Source: Burkholderiaceae bacterium (GTDB taxonomy: Bacteria; Pseudomonadota; Gammaproteobacteria; Burkholderiales; Burkholderiaceae_C). From it: a stretch of DNA of 39,686 nucleotides. Below are positions 13,847 to 34,336 of the stretch, piece by piece. Positions within the stretch are counted from its first letter, which is position 1. Each line of letters starts with the position of its first letter. The notes under the pieces are model-generated. The model saw only the letters and a list, made by a program, of their open reading frames with translations, was not told the origin of the DNA and searched no databases. The stretch covers positions 1-39,686 of the forward strand of contig JAEUOY010000042.1 of the NCBI GenBank assembly GCA_016790515.1. Reading direction: 5' to 3'. Both the position numbers and the translations under genes were made by a program.

Positions 13847-15160
13847 ATGCCCACGAGCTACCGCCCCTACGAGCCTGACCAGGTGATGCTGCTGCCGGCC
13901 GCGCCGCAAGACTGGCTGCCCGCAGGCCACCTGGCCCACTTCATCAACGACACAGTCGACGCGCTGGACCTCAAGGCGTTCTACGCCCGGTACGAGGGTG
14001 GGGGCTCGCGCAACCAGCCCTTTCACCCGGCGATGATGGTCAAGGTGCTGGTCTACGCCTGCGCCACGGGCGTGTTCAGCTCGCGCAAGATCGAGCGCCG
14101 GTTGCACGAGGACCCGGCGTTTCGGATGCTGGCGGCGGGCAACTTCCCGCGCCACCGCACCCTGTGCGACTTCCGGGCGTTGCACCTCGAGGAGCTGTCG
14201 GATCTGTTCGTGCAAGTCGTCAGGCTCGCCCGCGAGCTGGGTCTGGTCAAGCTGGGCACGGTGGCCATCGACGGCACCAAGGTCAAGGCCAACGCCAGCC
14301 GCCACAAGGCGATGAGCTAGGAGCGCATGCAGCAGGCCGAGATCGAGCTCAAGGCGCAGATCGACGCGCTGCTGGCCCGTGCCAAGGCCATCGACGAGAC
14401 CGAAGCGAACGAGCCTGAGCTGGACCTGCCGGCGGAGATCGAGCGGCGCGAGCAGCGGCTGGCGGCCATCGGCCAGGCCCGCGAGCGGCTGGAGCAACGC
14501 CAGCGCGAGGCGGACCTCGAGCGTGGCCGCAGCGACGACGACCGCCGCCCGCGGGGCCCAGACGGCCAGCCCAAGGGCAGGCGCTACAAGCGCGAGTTCG
14601 GCGTGCCCGAGGCCAAGGCGCAGGAGAACTTCACCGACCCGGACAGCCGCATCATGAAGCGCGCTGGTGGTGGGTTCGACCCGGCGTACAACGCGCAGAC
14701 CGCGGTGGACGAGGCCGCGCACATCATCGTGGCGGCCGACCTGGACAACACCGCACCGGACGCCAACTGGCTGCTGCCGATGATCCAGGCGGTGGGCAAC
14801 AACCTGGGTGAACTCCCTGAACTCGGTCTGGCCGACGCGGGCTACCGCAGCGAAGACAACCTCGAGCATGCGCCGATCGAGCTGGTGGTCGCACTCGGCC
14901 GGGAAGGCAAGGAGCACGCCGAGGTCGACGCAAAGCAGTACCCACACACCGCGGCAATGGCGGCCAAGCTCAAGACCGAAGAAGGCCGGGCGGCCTACCG
15001 CAAGCGCAAGTGGATCGCCGAGCCGCCCAACGGCTGGATCAAGAACGTGCTGGGGTTCGGGCAGTTCAGCATGCGAGGGCTGCACCGGGTGCGGGCCGAG
15101 TGCAAGCTCGTGTGCATGGCGCTGAACCTGCGGCGCATGGCGGTGCTGAGCGCAGGCTGA
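13847..15160 (+). pseudogene. IS1182-type transposase interrupted by an amber codon
   Basis: The first part (13847-14320, 157 aa) carries the N-terminal DUF772-type region (YRPYEPDQ, FHPAMMVKVLVY, SSRKIERRL) and the first DDE aspartate in VAIDGTKVKANAS. A TAG at 14318-14320 stops it after HKAMS. The same frame continues without any shift and carries a second aspartate (LADAGYRSEDN) and the catalytic glutamate region (IAEPPNGWIKNVLGF), ending at 15160. Relatives usually have Tyr after AMS, so one base change (TAC or TAT to TAG) explains the break. Read through, the protein would be 437 residues, normal for the family. Internal restart at the ATG at 14327 could give the C-terminal part, but that would lack the first catalytic residue. 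Confidence 0.88.
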
Positions 15161-27957: not shown

Positions 27958-29430
27958 TCAGCGCGGCGTGCCCGCCAGCGCCGGCGGCGGCACGAAGGCC
28001 CGGTATTCGCGCTCGATCCATTGCGCGAAGCGCAGGCAATCCGGGTCGGCGAACACCGGTCCGATGACCTGTGCGCCCACCGGCAGGCCTTCCGGGCTGA
28101 GCCCCAGCGGGATCGCGGTGGCCGGCAGCCCGACGATGCCGGGGTAGCCGGCCCAGAACAGCGCGTCGGTGCTCGGCTGGGTGTGGCCGTTGACCGGGAT
28201 CATGCGGTCCCAGCGCTCGCCGGTCTGCAGGTGCGGGAACGCGGGGGTCGTGGCCACCGGGCAGACCAGCAGGTCGTGCTGCTCGAAGAACGCCGCCCAG
28301 CGCTGCTGCAGCCGCACCCGCCGCTCGTGCATGGCCACCCAGTCGCGGTGGCTGCTGGCGATGCCGCGGAAGTGGCGCGCGGGGTAGCGCGCATCGTCGA
28401 CGGCGTAGTCGCGCGAGCGGGCGACCGCCTCGGCATGGGCGGCATCGTCGTACTGCGAGCCGGTGGCCGCGCGCAGCAGGTGGGTGTAGACCGCATTGGC
28501 CTCGGCGCTGTCGACCGGCCGCGCGTCCTCGGCCACCACCACGCCCTGGTCGCGCAGGAAGGCCACCAGGTCGCGCAGCGCGCGCTGCACGCTGGCATCG
28601 ACCTCGGCCTGGGCGTCGTCGTAGAGCACCGCGATGCGCAGGCGGCGCGGCGGCGTGCCGCGGTCGCGCCAGGCGGCCGGCAGGCGGCCGAGCGGCGTCA
28701 TCGCCTCCAGCGGCGAGGCCAGGATGTCCATCGCCAGCGCCAGGTCGAAGGCGCTGCGCGCCAGCGGGCCGACCGCGGCGATGTCGAAGTCGTCGGCGCG
28801 CACCGCCGGGGTCAGCTCATGGCCGGCCATCGGCACCACGCCCCAGGTCGGCTTGTGGCCCCAGACGCCGCAGTAGTGCGCCGGGTTGCGGATCGACGCG
28901 CCGATGTCGCTGCCCAGCTCCAGCGCGGTGAAGCCGGCGGCCAGCGCCGCGGCGGAGCCGCCCGACGATCCGCCCGGCGTGCGCGTCGTGTCCCAGGGGT
29001 TGGCGGTGGTGCCGTAGACCGGGTTGAAGCTCTGCCAGTCGGCCAGCGAGACCGGCACGTTGGTCTTGCCGAAGATCACCGCGCCGGCGCCGAGCAGGCG
29101 CTGCACCGTCAGCGCGTCGCCGGTCGCGATGTTGTTCGCGTAAGCCGTGAAGCCGTAGGTCGTCGGCAGCCCGGTGACGTTGAACGACTCCTTCACCGTC
29201 ATCGGCACGCCGTGCAGCGGGCCCCACAGCTCGCCGCGGGCCAGCGCCGCGTCGGCCGCGCGGGCGCGGGCGTGGGCACGCTCGGCGTCGAGCACCGGCA
29301 CCGCGTTGATCGGGCCGCCCAGCCGGGCGATGCGGTCGAGGTACAGCGCCAGCAGTTCGCTGGCCGACACCTGCTTGCGGCGGATGCGCCGGGCCAGTTC
29401 GTGCGCCGGCAGGAATGCGAGATCAGACAT
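27958..29430 (-). CDS. Amidase-signature family hydrolase (490 aa)
   Basis: A cytoplasmic Ser-cisSer-Lys amidase. The catalytic Lys is in TVKESFN; the glycine/serine-rich signature GGSSGGSAAA carries the cis-Ser, and the nucleophile Ser follows in SDIGASIRNPAHYCG. The triad thus looks intact. Family members hydrolyse many amides, including indole-3-acetamide, nitrile-derived and nylon-type amides; the substrate cannot be named. Its ATG (29430) lies inside the last codons of the upstream TIR-STAND gene: the sequence ATGTCTGA contains this start and that stop, an 8 bp overlap. It therefore is very probably translationally coupled to that gene. Confidence 0.92.
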   Translation of the reverse strand: MSDLAFLPAHELARRIRRKQVSASELLALYLDRIARLGGPINAVPVLDAERAHARARAADAALARGELWGPLHGVPMTVKESFNVTGLPTTYGFTAYANNIATGDALTVQRLLGAGAVIFGKTNVPVSLADWQSFNPVYGTTANPWDTTRTPGGSSGGSAAALAAGFTALELGSDIGASIRNPAHYCGVWGHKPTWGVVPMAGHELTPAVRADDFDIAAVGPLARSAFDLALAMDILASPLEAMTPLGRLPAAWRDRGTPPRRLRIAVLYDDAQAEVDASVQRALRDLVAFLRDQGVVVAEDARPVDSAEANAVYTHLLRAATGSQYDDAAHAEAVARSRDYAVDDARYPARHFRGIASSHRDWVAMHERRVRLQQRWAAFFEQHDLLVCPVATTPAFPHLQTGERWDRMIPVNGHTQPSTDALFWAGYPGIVGLPATAIPLGLSPEGLPVGAQVIGPVFADPDCLRFAQWIEREYRAFVPPPALAGTPR

Positions 29431-32400
29431 TCGGATCCTTCTGCGCCGGCCCGCGCCGGCTCGGTCGACATTCTGGGCGACCGGGCGCGCCGACGGCCGC
29501 CGCAGCGAGCACCGCCTGCCACTGCTCGCAGCGCTGCAAGGCGGCCGCGTCGCCCAGCGCCCGCGCCGTCGCGACGATGGCCGCGGCGGCGACGCGGTGC
29601 GACTGGGCCGTCGCGATGGCCCAGGCCTCGTCGAGCCGCGACAGGGCGCGCGCCTCGTCGCCGGCGGCCGCCGAGACGCGGGCCTCGAGGGCCAGGACTT
29701 CGGCGGCGTAATAGGTCTCCCGGCTGCCCGATCCGGCCTCCCTGCCCTGCCTCGCCGCTTCGCCGGCCCGGGCGAGGTCGCCTGCCAGCGCATGCCCGGC
29801 GGCCAGCCGCAGCTGCATGAACGGGAGCCAGACCCGCGCGCCGGTGGCCGCGTAGGCGGCGATCGCCGCGGCCATGCGTTCCAGCGATCGGCCGCCGTGG
29901 TCCTGCTCCCAGGCGGCGTTGGCAGCGACGAAGTCGGCCCAGGCGCGCCAGTACGGGAATGCCTGCTCCTCGGCCAGGTTGGCCGCGATGCCGGCCAGTT
30001 GCGCCGCCGCCTCGAAGCGGCCCTGGGCATCGTTGACGATGCCGCCGAACGTGCAGGCGAAGATGCGGTCCAGGCCCTGCCGCTGCGAATCGGCGCGTTC
30101 CCGGGCCGCCCGCCATTGCGCCTGGGCAGCCGCGAAATCGCCCAGGTAGCTCAGGCAGAGCGCTCGCCAGCAGCCCATGGCCACCACCGGGTCCTGGCCG
30201 TAGACCTCGGCATGGCCTTCGCAGCCCGCTTCGGCGCACAGCGCGAGCCCGCTGTCCAGCCGTGCCAGCGCTTCGTGGAACCGGCCCTGGTTGAAGTGGG
30301 TGATGGCCACGGCATGGTGGGCCTCGATGCGCGACGCCGGCTCGGCGCCGGCATCGGCCACCTGGTCGAGCTCGGCGGCCAGCTGCCGGGCGCCGTCGAA
30401 CTCTGCCCGCACGATCGCGTAGGCCCAGGCGCCGAACAGCGCCGCGACGCGCTGGCTCGAATCGCCGACCTGGCGGCTCAGCAGCCGGGCCCGCTCGTAG
30501 GTCTGCGCCGTCTCGGCGGCGGCATAGCCGCTGACCGCGACCAGCACCGCGCCGTAGTCCAGCCGCAGCGACAGCTCCACCGCGGCCTGCTCGGCCTCGG
30601 GCAGCGCCGGTACCAGCTGCAGGGCCTGGTCCAGGTCGTGGCGGGCCTCCCAGCCGGCGGATCGGGCCATGTCGCGTCGCGCAGACTGCCGCCAACAGGG
30701 GATCGCGAGGGCCTTGTCGTTGCCCCGGGTCAGGTGATGGGCGACGAGGGCCGGGTTCGCGCATGGCGCCTGGGCAGCGAGCGAGGCCGCGACCAGCGCG
30801 TGGTAGCGGCGGCGCTCGCGGCTCGGCAGCCGGTGGTAGGCCACATCGCGCATCAGGCCGTGGCGGAAGGCGTGGCGGTCGTGGCCGGGCCGCCCGCTGC
30901 GGCGCGCCACGCCCAGCTCGAGCATGCGCGCCAGGCCCGCTTCCGGCGCCTCGATGCCCGCCTTGCGCGCGACCTCGAACAGCAGCGCCGGATCGAACTC
31001 GAAGCCGATCACCGCGGCCAGCTCGGCGCAGGGCTTGGCGCTGCCGAGGCTGTCCAGGCGCTGCTCCAGCAGACCGCTCAGCCGGCCGGGAACGGCCTCC
31101 TCGGCGCCGCTGCCGTCCAGCAGCATCTTCACGTACTCTTCGACGAACAGCGGAATGCCGTCGGTGGCGACCATGATCGCGGGCAGCGACGACGCCGGGA
31201 TGCGCCGCTGCGGGTCGAGCCGGGCGACGAGCTCGGCCGCGACCTCCGGCCCGAAACGGTCGAGGTGGATCTCGCAGACGCCGCCGACCCGGTGCAAGGC
31301 TTCGGCAAAGGGCTCGCTGCTGCTGGCAACGGCCAGGATCCGCGACCCGTCCAGGTAGTCGGTCAGGGTCGTGAACCACTCCAGGGTCGAGGGGTCGGCC
31401 CACTGGGCGTCCTCCAGGCTCAGCAGCACCGGCTCGCGATCGGCGACGGCGAGCACCCAGGTGGCCAGCGCCTCCAGCAGGTCGCGGCGGATCGCGGCCG
31501 GGCTGGACGCGGCCTGCGCATCGCCGAACAGCGGGGCCAGCGCGGGCACCGCGACCGCCTCGTCGAGCCCGTCGCGGGTCAGCGCGGCCGCGAGCGCCGC
31601 CATGTCCGGCACCTGATCGTCGCGCATCTGCAGCCGCCGCCGGAGGTGGTCGAGCACCGGATGCAGGCTGTCGTTCGTGTGCAGGGGCGAGCACTTCAGC
31701 CGGATGTCGCGCCAGGCAGGGCCCCCCGCGACCTGCCGCAGGCCCTGGAGCAGGCGGCTCTTGCCCATGCCGCGATCGCCGCGCAGCAGCACCAGGCCGC
31801 CGCGGCCGTCGCGGGCCCGGTCCCAGGCCGAGCGCAGCACCGCCAGTTCGGCGTCGCGGCCGAGCAGCAGGACGTCGTCCGCCCGGCCCTGCCCGAGGCT
31901 CGGCGCGCCGACCCGGCAGCCGGGCCGGTCGACGGCCGTCGACAGCTCGAAGTGCGGCGCCAGCAAGGGGACCATCCGCGCGCTGGCGAGCATCTCGCCG
32001 GGGCCTGCGGCCGCGCGCAGGCGGTCCGCCTCGTCGATCGAGGTGCCGCTCAGGCGGCCCTCGGGCGTGGCCATCACGATGCCGTAGTCGATGCCGGCGC
32101 GCAGCACGACGCGATCGCCGTTCGTGCCCGGAAGCCGGCCGAGCTTCGTCGCGAGCTCCTGCAGCGCCAGTACCGCCTGGCGGGCATCGTGCTCATGGGC
32201 CCGCGGATAGCCGAAGTGCAGCCGGACCCCCTGCGACGTGGTCTCCAGGTGGCCGTCGAAACGTTCGGCGACCTGCCCGGCGAGCCGCTCGAAGGCCGGC
32301 ATCGCCGCAAGCACGACCTCGAGCGCTTCGTCGGGCTCCAGCCCGGCCGCCGCCGGGCGCAGCTCGCAGCTGGCGGTCGCCACATGCCTGCGTTCGGCCG

Positions 32401-32896
32401 TCGGCGGGGCGGCCCGCGCTGCGTTGCGGGCGCACGCTGCATCGGCCAGGCGCGCCAGTTCGCTGCGGATCTGCAGGCAGAGCCGCTTGAACGGGCCGGG
32501 TTCGCCGAAGTCCTCTTCGACGGTCTTGCCGTCGCGCGGCAGGAACTGCAGCCGGGCGAGCCACGGCTGCGCCATCCAGTCGCACGGCGAGAGCAGGACC
32601 GGCAGCAGCGCCAGTTCGGGCCGCGGGCGTTCGAGCAGGCTGCGGATCTCGACCTTGGCGATGTAGTCGGAGTCCAGGAAAGCCTGGCTGACCAGCAGCA
32701 GCGCGACATCGGCAGCGGCGAGTTGCTCGCGTATCGCCTTGTCCCAGTCTGCGCCTTGATCTATATCGCGGTCGGTCCAGAATTCGATGCCGGTGTTGCG
32801 CAGGCCATGAAGAAACCCATACAGGGAATCCCGGCGCATATAGGCCTCGTCCAGGTGGCTGTAGCTGACGAAGACCTTGATGCGGGCCCTGACCAC
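29423..32896 (-). CDS. TIR / degenerate cyclase-like / STAND-type ATPase / helical-repeat fusion (1157 aa)
   Basis: Domains in order: a TIR_2-type domain (residues ~5-130: KVFVSYSHLDEAY, EFWTDRDI, DSDYIAKVEIRSLLE, with Glu83 as candidate catalytic glutamate); a class III nucleotidyl cyclase-like domain (~172-320); an AAA/STAND ATPase (Walker A GDRGMGKS at 373-380, Walker B LLSLEDAQW with Glu/Asp 495-496); and a C-terminal half (~620-1140) rich in Ala-Leu helices like TPR repeats (for example LARLDSGLALC, HFNQGRFHEAL). The cyclase metal sites are lost: CEL replaces CDL, and SQG replaces GDG before HFGYP. It probably senses or scaffolds rather than makes cAMP. There is no signal peptide or membrane span. 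TIR domains often cleave NAD+, and STAND proteins oligomerise on ligand binding. A defence or signalling role is inferred. Confidence 0.85.
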   Translation of the reverse strand: MVRARIKVFVSYSHLDEAYMRRDSLYGFLHGLRNTGIEFWTDRDIDQGADWDKAIREQLAAADVALLLVSQAFLDSDYIAKVEIRSLLERPRPELALLPVLLSPCDWMAQPWLARLQFLPRDGKTVEEDFGEPGPFKRLCLQIRSELARLADAACARNAARAAPPTAERRHVATASCELRPAAAGLEPDEALEVVLAAMPAFERLAGQVAERFDGHLETTSQGVRLHFGYPRAHEHDARQAVLALQELATKLGRLPGTNGDRVVLRAGIDYGIVMATPEGRLSGTSIDEADRLRAAAGPGEMLASARMVPLLAPHFELSTAVDRPGCRVGAPSLGQGRADDVLLLGRDAELAVLRSAWDRARDGRGGLVLLRGDRGMGKSRLLQGLRQVAGGPAWRDIRLKCSPLHTNDSLHPVLDHLRRRLQMRDDQVPDMAALAAALTRDGLDEAVAVPALAPLFGDAQAASSPAAIRRDLLEALATWVLAVADREPVLLSLEDAQWADPSTLEWFTTLTDYLDGSRILAVASSSEPFAEALHRVGGVCEIHLDRFGPEVAAELVARLDPQRRIPASSLPAIMVATDGIPLFVEEYVKMLLDGSGAEEAVPGRLSGLLEQRLDSLGSAKPCAELAAVIGFEFDPALLFEVARKAGIEAPEAGLARMLELGVARRSGRPGHDRHAFRHGLMRDVAYHRLPSRERRRYHALVAASLAAQAPCANPALVAHHLTRGNDKALAIPCWRQSARRDMARSAGWEARHDLDQALQLVPALPEAEQAAVELSLRLDYGAVLVAVSGYAAAETAQTYERARLLSRQVGDSSQRVAALFGAWAYAIVRAEFDGARQLAAELDQVADAGAEPASRIEAHHAVAITHFNQGRFHEALARLDSGLALCAEAGCEGHAEVYGQDPVVAMGCWRALCLSYLGDFAAAQAQWRAARERADSQRQGLDRIFACTFGGIVNDAQGRFEAAAQLAGIAANLAEEQAFPYWRAWADFVAANAAWEQDHGGRSLERMAAAIAAYAATGARVWLPFMQLRLAAGHALAGDLARAGEAARQGREAGSGSRETYYAAEVLALEARVSAAAGDEARALSRLDEAWAIATAQSHRVAAAAIVATARALGDAAALQRCEQWQAVLAAAAVGAPGRPECRPSRRGPAQKDPNV

Positions 32897-32935: not shown

Positions 32936-32965
32936 AGTCTAGTTTGGAGCCGCGCGACCTGTCAA
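32936..32965 (-). promoter_or_regulatory. Predicted sigma-70 promoter for the TIR-STAND/amidase operon
   Basis: On the minus strand, TTGACA (32960-32965) is a perfect -35 element, followed after 18 bp by TAGACT (32936-32941), which matches the -10 consensus at four of six positions. The expected transcript start lies about 35 bp before the ATG at 32896. The region is the most AT-rich of the window, unlike the flanking genes. Confidence 0.55.
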
Positions 32966-33022: not shown

Positions 33023-34336
33023 ATGGTGAGCCGGCTGCCTGGGCGGCGCGTCGCGGCGGCGCGCTTGGCGCTTTCATTCCTGGCGCTGTCTTGCCGGGTC
33101 GGCATGGCGAGCGCGGCGACGCTCGGCATTCCCCTCGGCGATGCACCGGTGCTGGAACGGATCTTCGCCTATCCGAACAAGCCCGACCCGTCGCTCGATC
33201 TGGCCGGGACGATCGAGCATTACCTGCGGCAGAGCCTGGCGCGCGACGGTTTCGCCGGCGCGTCGGTCCGGGTCGTCCAGGACGGGAATGGCCATCGCGC
33301 GGAACTGACCGCCGACAGCCCCGACCTGGCCCGCTATGGCGAGCGCCTGCCGGGCTTTCTGCGGAACGGCCGGATGGCTGACGAGGCATTTGCCGGAATC
33401 CAGGATGCGGGCCAGTGGAATCCGCAATGGCGGGTGTATCTGCCGCTCGGCCTGCCGCTGGCGCGAGCACGGTCGGTGCAATTGCTGCACTTCCCGCCCG
33501 ACTATTCGCTCAGCTGCCAGGACTATCTCGGCTCGAGGACCAGCCGGCGCTGGGAGGCCTTGCTGCTGGCCAACGGCGCGCCGCAGGACAGCCTGGCCCG
33601 CCACGAGGCCATCGTCGACATCGTGCCGATCGCAGCGCCGGCAGACTCGGGCAACCGGCTGCCGGTCGTGCCGTTCCGCGGCTATGCCAAGGCCCAGCTG
33701 CAGTTGCTGACGGCGGCCGCTGACCCGGGGGGCGACGCCCACACCCTGCCCGTTCTGGCCTACGGCCAGCCGGTGCGCCAATGGGTCAACGACATGCTCG
33801 GGCAGGACTTGCAGCGCGTGCTCGACACCCGCTACGTCGAGCTGCAAAGCGGGCGCAAGACCCCGCTGCTGGTCGCCAATCACCCCAGCTACTTCTGGCG
33901 GGCCTGGGAAGAATCGCCGGACAAGGGCCGCAAGGTGATGCAGGAGGACCTGGTGGCCGCCTGCTGGCAGAAGGCCCTCGGCGACGACCCCGGCGCCGAC
34001 ATCCGCGCCACGCTGAGCCTGTGCCAGGCACGCTGGCAGGCCAGGCCGGAGGAGGTCTGCGTGCTGACTCGAGTGCAGGCCTGCGGCGACCCGTGGCCGC
34101 AGGCCGAGTCGCAATGCCGGCAGAGCCCGCAGTCGCCGCCGGCCTGCGCCGCGAAGGCGCCGGTGGACGCATCGCCCGCCGGCAGCCAGGCCGCCGAGGC
34201 AGCATCGGCACCGCAGCAGGTCGAAGCCTGCGTGCCGACGCAGATGCAGCAGTGCGGCTACGTCCGGCAGCAGGCCGAAGCCCTGTGCCGGCAGTACCGG
34301 CAGCCACCGGCCTGCCCCAAAGCCTGTCCCCTGTAG
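33023..34336 (+). CDS. Secreted protein with duplicated cysteine motif, function unknown (437 aa)
   Basis: I do not recognise a family. The N-terminus (residues 1-31, RLALSFLALSCRVGMASA) is a signal peptide with a cleavage-like ASA, so export is likely. The middle (residues ~40-350) is a globular region with no known catalytic motif. The C-terminal region carries two ~28-residue units: C-x-x-T-R-V-Q-A-C-G ... QAESQCRQ and C-x-x-T-Q-M-Q-Q-C-G ... QAEALCRQ. Each has cysteines at like positions, and a Pro/Ala-rich linker separates them. They may form disulfide-bonded loops in the periplasm or outside. It is divergent from the TIR-STAND gene across 126 bp. The start has GGAGA ahead of the ATG. 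It uses TAG as stop, unlike most neighbours. Confidence 0.8.
   Translation: MVSRLPGRRVAAARLALSFLALSCRVGMASAATLGIPLGDAPVLERIFAYPNKPDPSLDLAGTIEHYLRQSLARDGFAGASVRVVQDGNGHRAELTADSPDLARYGERLPGFLRNGRMADEAFAGIQDAGQWNPQWRVYLPLGLPLARARSVQLLHFPPDYSLSCQDYLGSRTSRRWEALLLANGAPQDSLARHEAIVDIVPIAAPADSGNRLPVVPFRGYAKAQLQLLTAAADPGGDAHTLPVLAYGQPVRQWVNDMLGQDLQRVLDTRYVELQSGRKTPLLVANHPSYFWRAWEESPDKGRKVMQEDLVAACWQKALGDDPGADIRATLSLCQARWQARPEEVCVLTRVQACGDPWPQAESQCRQSPQSPPACAAKAPVDASPAGSQAAEAASAPQQVEACVPTQMQQCGYVRQQAEALCRQYRQPPACPKACPL

Follow-up and report, generated by a model that had tools for sequence, protein, structure and literature searches.

The window analysed here is the whole contig JAEUOY010000042.1 (39,686 bases) of a Burkholderiaceae metagenome-assembled genome (MAG; GCA_016790515.1) that is 82% complete. 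On its minus strand, running from 32896 to 29423, lies a gene with a GTG start and without internal stop, whose predicted product of 1157 residues joins a TIR domain, a cyclase-homology domain (CHD) that has lost catalytic residues, a STAND-type ATPase and a tail of TPR-like helical repeats. The plus-strand frame of 32896-29423 is likewise stop-free, and the minus strand was taken as the coding strand because of its codon-position G+C values (0.79/0.52/0.91), which follow a coding pattern, and because of homology. An AGGAG motif is present upstream of the GTG. The features of the gene are as follows:

29423..32896, minus strand: TIR - degenerate cyclase (CHD) - STAND ATPase - TPR-like protein, 1157 aa, GTG start (open frame; Pfam, NCBIfam and PADLOC; AlphaFold; Foldseek)
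32540..32875, minus strand: TIR domain, Pfam TIR_2, residues 8-119 (Pfam; TIR-only model with Foldseek TIR matches)
32648..32650, minus strand: codon of Glu83, candidate NADase glutamate (invariant in TIR alignments; role by analogy with TIR NADases)
32411..32494, minus strand: long helix, about residues 135-162, joining the TIR to the CHD (both AlphaFold models, 135-161 and 135-162)
31901..32395, minus strand: CHD, residues 168-332, predicted to be catalytically degenerate (alignment with intact homologues; model; Foldseek)
32363..32365, minus strand: E178, replacing the first metal-binding Asp (alignment)
32231..32233, minus strand: Q222, replacing the second metal-binding Asp, GDG to SQG (alignment)
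32033..32035, minus strand: D288, replacing the catalytic Asn, with R292 kept (alignment)
31358..31867, minus strand: STAND-type P-loop ATPase, AAA_16, residues 344-513 (Pfam)
31757..31780, minus strand: Walker A, GDRGMGKS, residues 373-380 (translation; alignment)
31409..31429, minus strand: Walker B, VLLSLED, residues 490-496 (alignment)
29489..30823, minus strand: TPR-like helical-repeat tail, residues about 692-1136, presumed sensor (DSSP of the model; Foldseek)
32936..32965, minus strand: promoter-like site TTGACA-18-TAGACT upstream of the gene (1 found versus 0.1 expected; consensus match only)

These four parts had been proposed in an earlier note on this DNA, and Pfam, the NCBIfam profile TIGR03903, AlphaFold and Foldseek agreed on them. 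All four domains are real, the TIR domain at moderate structural confidence.

Domains of the 1157-residue protein

The N-terminal region matched Pfam TIR_2 over residues 8-119 (E 6.4e-14; 52.9 bits against a cut-off of 28), and the PADLOC profile for ThsB covered residues 7-174 (E 1.7e-22). The best PDB match by sequence, which was also the sole one at E≤1, was a plant TIR resistance protein and was not significant (E 0.99). The TIR region was also modelled separately with AlphaFold from 9 sequences (per-residue confidence, pLDDT, 74.9; predicted template-modelling score, pTM, 0.71). All 24 top PDB matches of this model in Foldseek carried TIR domains, among them plant and animal TIRs, SPARTA and AbTir, with E≤0.001 in 4, a best E of 1.6e-4 and TM-scores of about 0.4-0.6; ArsH and deoxyribosyltransferases ranked below the TIR domains. 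The structure and domain searches therefore upheld the TIR fold named in the earlier note, in a model of moderate confidence. Glu83, put forward in the same note as the candidate NADase glutamate, was unchanged throughout three TIR alignments. Judged from profiles, alignments and model, the head has the fold and the conserved glutamate of a TIR NADase, and NAD+ cleavage is predicted.

The Pfam profile Guanylate_cyc gave no match in the 1157-residue protein at E≤1 because the cyclase part is too degenerate. TIGR03903 aligned with residues 168-1103 (E 3e-93; 313.6 bits, under its own cut-off of 705.75), and intact homologues aligned across the CHD. According to the AlphaFold model, in which its pLDDT is about 90 and for which Foldseek returned CyaB, CyaC and guanylate cyclases (3r5g, 1wc1, 6aoa), the CHD has a class III cyclase fold. 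Compared with intact relatives, FCD has become SCE (E178), GDG has become SQG (Q222) and the Asn of TPNxAAR has become D288, with R292 kept; the stretch beside the altered sites, FGYPRAHEHDARQAV, remains near the family consensus. In class III cyclases those aspartates bind metal, and the Asn and Arg positions stabilise the transition state. With neither metal-binding Asp nor the catalytic Asn left, the CHD is predicted to be catalytically dead and should not make cyclic nucleotides. A nucleotide-making hybrid of TIR and cyclase, that is, a one-protein Pycsar, was ruled out by the loss of these active-site residues.

Pfam AAA_16 matched residues 344-513 (E 3.7e-19), where both Walker A and Walker B are intact; the P-loop GDRGMGKS, already read in the earlier note, is present at residues 373-380. 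The tail consists of TPR-like helix pairs, and the protein therefore has the Walker A/B motifs of a STAND-type ATPase with helical repeats after them. The full-length AlphaFold model (71 sequences; mean pLDDT 84.4, pTM 0.62) was near 90 in the CHD, mostly above 80 in the ATPase and mostly above 90 in the tail, and was poor in the TIR because three alignment rows alone cover it. When this model was compared with the PDB, Foldseek placed a solved STAND-TPR protein first and Avs3 second and third, which agrees, together with the intact Walker motifs, with the STAND logic proposed earlier. Rank 4 was a maltose-system protein, which we take to be MalT, and lower matches comprised other TPR proteins, the apoptosome, class III cyclases (CyaB, CyaC, soluble and rhodopsin guanylate cyclases) and the NLR RPP1.

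Relatives, head exchange and the cyclase site

Sequence comparison places the CHD-STAND-TPR part (the body) in a large family related to TIGR03903. Body relatives without a TIR were common, being found in 27 of the 369 genomes of the window's class at E≤1e-40, and body relatives were also found in 16 of 398 genomes of its phylum at 1e-70 and in 21 of 40 relative genomes at 1e-20, its own genome counted each time and repeats being included in the totals searched. An alignment scan of contigs gave at least 515 confirmed body stretches; the list was ordered by similarity to the window protein, and its best 80 entered the tallies below. Of 13 candidates from a single-sequence scan of 84,980 species, a scan limited to close relatives, none was confirmed. 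The N-termini of the body relatives, by Pfam on representatives, were zinc ribbon, SAM, kinase, BTAD, winged helix and other small helical or unnamed regions. Two STAND proteins of the same family (L190, 6765-9299; L191, 6365-9016) have frames that seem too short for a CHD or a large head. On plasmids, 317 records matched the window protein and none covered 80% of it in a single place. Viral contigs gave seven body relatives and, with one TIR alignment, seven TIRs, and no TIR relative with another, earlier TIR alignment; these sequences were used in alignments and not as evidence of phage carriage.

Among the matches listed in the alignment scan, a single locus (L074) matched from residue 5. 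It belongs to a MAG titled Thermoanaerobaculum sp. (Acidobacteriota), our genome G800. Contig C131 of this genome (L168, 1973-12934) carries three uninterrupted TIR-CHD-STAND-TPR genes in tandem, 9 nt apart each; relative to the query copy, the other two have 83% and 81% identity. Contig C123 (L167, 292-7992) carries a tandem pair of which one head is a Trans_reg_C winged helix and the other a Pkinase domain, while the bodies match that of the TIR-headed query copy at 78% and 77% identity; heads in G800 were assigned by Pfam on one TIR copy and both C123 genes. The N-terminus of the body is thus exchangeable, as within this one genome TIR, kinase and winged-helix heads sit on bodies that are 77-78% alike.

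Searches based on G800 uncovered one further TIR-headed gene in G844, whose frame ends at the contig edge, and two in G1111. The TIR-headed set therefore comprises seven proteins in four genomes (window 1, G800 3, G1111 2, G844 1), to be read with the fact that scoring was limited to two candidates per genome in the class, phylum and G800-based searches, so that TIR-headed proteins can have escaped. The combination had been called unusual in the earlier note and is indeed uncommon among the sampled genomes. The protein is a TIR-headed member of the CHD-STAND-TPR family, and its architecture is rare in the sampled genomes, yet recurrent. All seven members have a CHD and retain the GKS of Walker A and the ED of Walker B, and none keeps the four cyclase residues (Asp, Asp, Asn, Arg; D,D,N,R) or both metal-binding Asp. 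The TIR glutamate aligns in the six members put in the TIR alignment, and the seventh, the third G800 copy, has it by its sequence.

The window TIR scored 151 and 142 bits with the two TIRs of G1111, the next best score being 89 (247 genomes of the phylum of G1111 and 299 of the window's phylum). Identity was 46% and 44% with the G1111 TIRs and at most 38% with the other 11 TIRs compared, which makes it less likely that the gene arose recently and privately by fusion with a TIR from its own genus. Of 44 TIR frames collected from phylum loci, those of the window and the two of G1111 alone showed body homology. The window and G1111 TIRs have the common pattern DSLxGFLxGL, FWxD, LSPC[DE]W, QFLP; that they are nearest each other and share this pattern suggests that the fusion of TIR and body was inherited or transferred as a unit. 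In a genome of the same genus, L060 (4673-6664, minus strand) has a C-terminal TIR on a frame that resembles, by eye, a subtilisin-type protease.

The head and the state of the cyclase site were then tallied over the family. A total of 204 family frames gave 185 aligned rows after near-copies were removed, and 24 short or cut rows were dropped together with L183, a cut row with a degenerate cyclase, leaving 160. Head classes were assigned by phmmer against reference N-termini or by a zinc-ribbon pattern, with a Pfam check on representatives only. All four residues were kept in 0 of 37 large-headed proteins (TIR 0/7, kinase 0/15, BTAD 0/9, winged-helix 0/2, unnamed 0/4) versus 114 of 123 small-headed ones (zinc-ribbon 38/43, SAM 71/74, other 5/6). 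Fisher's exact test gave 4e-28, a value that is no measure of independent events as the rows are related. The second Asp alone is D in 123/123 small-headed and 7/37 large-headed proteins. Of the 24 TIR, kinase and winged-helix proteins, 12 have E in place of the first Asp and 13 have D in place of the Asn; neither change occurs in the 123 small-headed proteins. In the rows from the contig scan alone (the best 80 of the list), for which the search patterns exclude the four cyclase residues, the same division was seen (0/8 large-headed versus 70/73 small-headed).

The four proteins with unnamed heads, one of which is encoded in the window's own genome (L002, on G000:C130; the others are L054, L056 and L058), have a large N-terminal domain and the cyclase residues D,D,H,R. 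The label CHAT had been given to these N-termini by eye; L002 and L058, the two that were scanned, gave no Pfam match there, and the label was dropped.

A tree of the ATPase region was built from 100 rows (the 37 large-headed, the 9 non-intact small-headed and 54 random intact proteins), and on it head type and cyclase state change 9 times each. The TIR label changes 5 times, at least 2 of these being forced by strongly supported branches. With all branches of the best tree, 9 pairs were obtained, of which 4-7 went the same way and 0 the opposite way for loss of any residue (200 random pairings); for loss of a metal-binding Asp only, 6-8 pairs went the same way and 0-1 the opposite way (six commonest outcomes). 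The association of head and cyclase state is thus striking in the tally and consistent on the tree, with independence weakly supported. Among the titles and abstract openings listed in searches of the open literature, none described a TIR-cyclase-STAND fusion or this rule.

Known systems and a proposed mechanism

The closest named family is TIGR03903 (TOMM_kin_cyc), whose profile spans the CHD, the ATPase and the tail; L017, a relative with a kinase head from the same class as the window, passes it at 1011.7 bits. The window protein, however, has a TIR where the kinase stands, and no Ser/Thr kinase was among its Pfam matches at E≤1. A large Ser/Thr kinase beside TOMM precursors is mentioned in a passage of PMC2887384; in the window, Pfam recognised no TOMM genes in 28 frames, a search that leaves aside short precursors and the rest of the genome. 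The absent kinase and the score below cut-off ruled out a TOMM kinase/cyclase identity. Proteins annotated as adenylate/guanylate cyclases with AAA_16 and TPR, with zinc-ribbon or SAM N-termini and many of them from Bradyrhizobium, have the same body at roughly 24-35% identity, but their N-terminus is small and the four cyclase residues are kept in 109 of the 117 zinc-ribbon and SAM rows.

Among defence systems, the Avs and other bacterial NLR-like STAND proteins (Avs3, PDB 8dgc) share the N-terminal effector, central STAND ATPase and helical-repeat C-terminus. The window protein has an extra CHD, and no Avs profile was among its three PADLOC matches at E≤1. Pycsar with PycTIR joins a class III cyclase and a TIR NADase in one pathway, as described in parts of PMC11224242, but there the cyclase is active and separate from the TIR protein, which has a cyclic-nucleotide-binding domain. 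The window protein is one polypeptide with a cyclase predicted to be dead, and its Pfam matches include no cyclic-nucleotide-binding domain. It resembles ThsB of Thoeris by the profile match and differs in that its TIR is fused to CHD-STAND-TPR; Pfam recognised no ThsA in the 28 window frames, which are part of the frames of the 39.7-kb contig. Swarozyc/DUF4062 TIR-like NADases and TEP1 likewise have a TIR-like NADase head, in eukaryotes beside a NACHT ATPase (sections of the preprint PMC13174449), whereas the window TIR is of the TIR_2 type, its ATPase family differs by profile and a CHD intervenes. Other fusions are mentioned in excerpts of two papers, namely TIR fusions in MoxR-vWA ternary systems (PMC8195603) and TIR domains fused to iSTAND domains (PMC7159879).

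We think it probable that the protein is a one-polypeptide NLR-like STAND switch, with the TIR as output and the dead CHD as a structural element. In the general scheme for antiviral STAND proteins, the tail senses, the ATPase oligomerises and the N-terminal effector is activated (outlined in PMC10907252), and oligomerisation activates TIR NADases according to passages of PMC13174449 and PMC11224242. In the window protein, the TPR-like tail would sense a trigger, and the P-loop ATPase would exchange nucleotide and oligomerise as in other STAND proteins. The assembly would cluster the N-terminal TIRs via the long helix (residues 135-162) and the CHD, and the clustered TIRs may then cleave NAD+ or make a nucleotide signal using Glu83. 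The CHD would be a former output that keeps its fold and probably its pairing tendency, serving now as a spacer or oligomerisation platform. Class III cyclases act as dimers, so a dead CHD could still pair, which would explain why it has been retained.

As judged from the alignments, one CHD-STAND-TPR chassis carries TIR, Ser/Thr kinase and winged-helix/BTAD heads, and the sampled members with such heads are without an intact cyclase site. A broader reading, on which we are evenly divided, is that CHD-STAND-TPR proteins are prokaryotic NLR-like receptors with swappable heads, that the gain of a head retires the cyclase to an oligomerisation adaptor, and that the chassis has been rewired repeatedly, even within one genome.

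Genomic context and alternative explanations

Three other features of the window are of interest for its context:

27958..29430, minus strand: amidase-signature amidase, 490 aa, ATG at 29430, with an 8-nt overlap with the stop of the TIR gene (ATGTCTGA) (Pfam, NCBIfam)
33023-34336, plus strand: 437-aa protein with a signal-like N-terminus (by eye), divergent from the TIR gene (no Pfam match)
13847-15160, plus strand: transposase in two frames (DUF772, DDE), about 14 kb from the TIR gene (Pfam)

The downstream amidase matched PF01425 (E 1.2e-97) and NF004816 above its cut-off. It is part of the unit of the TIR gene by position only; translational coupling is plausible, and no amidase was found among the 10 neighbour proteins scanned at three homologue loci, two in G1111 and one in G800. 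The divergent 437-residue protein is nearly private, being present in 2 of 60 genomes with its own included (1 of 59 others). The remaining Pfam neighbours are ordinary: polyhydroxyalkanoate synthase, histidine kinases, EamA transporters, peptidase M3, nitroreductase, nitronate monooxygenase, short-chain dehydrogenases, CinA, a ClC channel, a methyltransferase, an M81 metallopeptidase and a thioesterase.

Several points weigh against the proposed switch and the rule that links head and cyclase. No recognisable defence system was found by Pfam in the 28 window frames or by PADLOC in 10 neighbour proteins (3 from the window and 7 from three homologue loci), as the earlier note had already seen for the window; the two PADLOC matches, of about 45 and 34 residues, were both in one amine-oxidase protein. 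The confidence of the TIR model is moderate, and NADase activity, ATPase activity and the trigger are predictions. Body trees do not join the window protein to those of G1111, the window protein being a long branch placed without strong support; when it was forced together with L194 and L196, the approximately unbiased test did not reject the grouping (p-AU 0.584) and the likelihood was slightly better. The four unnamed large heads keep both metal-binding Asp (DDHR), as does one kinase-headed protein (DDNE), and 9 of the 123 small-headed proteins are not intact. Well-supported branches of the ATPase-region tree yield 2 independent pairs, which is not significant, and the rule may rest on few events.

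One alternative is a role outside defence, where the TIR would be an interaction or signalling head in a metabolic or developmental regulator. This possibility, toward which we lean less and which overlaps the proposed switch, as the switch needs no defence, would fit the lack of recognised defence genes in the scanned window frames and neighbour proteins, the regulator-type heads of the relatives and the amidase gene that overlaps the TIR-STAND gene. Patchy, multi-copy occurrence is usual for defence genes, and the TIR-headed genes are distributed in this way; the TIR glutamate is conserved as well, and parts of PMC10907252 and PMC7159879 describe conflict systems in which STAND or iSTAND proteins bear TIR heads. 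A defence function is plausible.

That the cyclase part had become a nucleotide-sensing module was the suggestion of the earlier note. The change of role stood, but the nucleotide sensing gained no support from the analysis: ordinary binding of nucleoside triphosphate and metal by the CHD is unlikely with both metal-binding Asp and the Asn gone. We also weighed a wider version in which the degenerate CHD, a lost catalyst turned receptor, gates the TIR by sensing a nucleotide or another ligand. The CHD is well folded in the model and present in 7/7 TIR-headed proteins, and the recurrent E (12/24) and D (13/24) substitutions could mean a new function; Kaur et al. suggest, in a passage of PMC7159879, nucleotide-binding or dominant-negative roles for inactive cyclase domains in other conflict systems, and binding of nucleotide only would be one such role. 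The metal site for a triphosphate is gone, however, and at the position of the second Asp the seven TIR-headed proteins have Q, G, S, H, P, P and T, whereas a kept ligand site would be conserved, which makes such a receptor doubtful in our eyes. Comparison of the homologues speaks more for a dead CHD kept under a changed head as a structural or oligomerisation element than for a nucleotide sensor. Mere decay of the cyclase under relaxed selection, in a gene on its way out, would fit the degenerate residues, the lack of relatives in the single-sequence scan, which reaches only close ones, and the long branch, but is very improbable given the intact 1157-codon frame with its coding G+C pattern, the kept ATPase and TIR motifs, and the recurrence of this architecture, with a loss of the same kind, in three further genomes, one of which has the three uninterrupted tandem copies.

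The NLR-like switch with a dead, structural CHD has consequences beyond this gene. A STAND ATPase and a TPR-like tail are found in many bacterial proteins annotated as adenylate/guanylate cyclases; if the same body drives TIR, kinase and DNA-binding heads, such proteins would be better viewed as NLR-like receptors. The set of proteins assembled here makes a question of enzyme evolution testable, namely why a dead cyclase stays between head and motor. If the reading holds, the TIR-headed members would give a readable output, the loss of NAD+, for finding triggers across the family, and the chassis would have passed repeatedly from signalling by cyclic nucleotides to cleavage of NAD+, phosphorylation or transcription.

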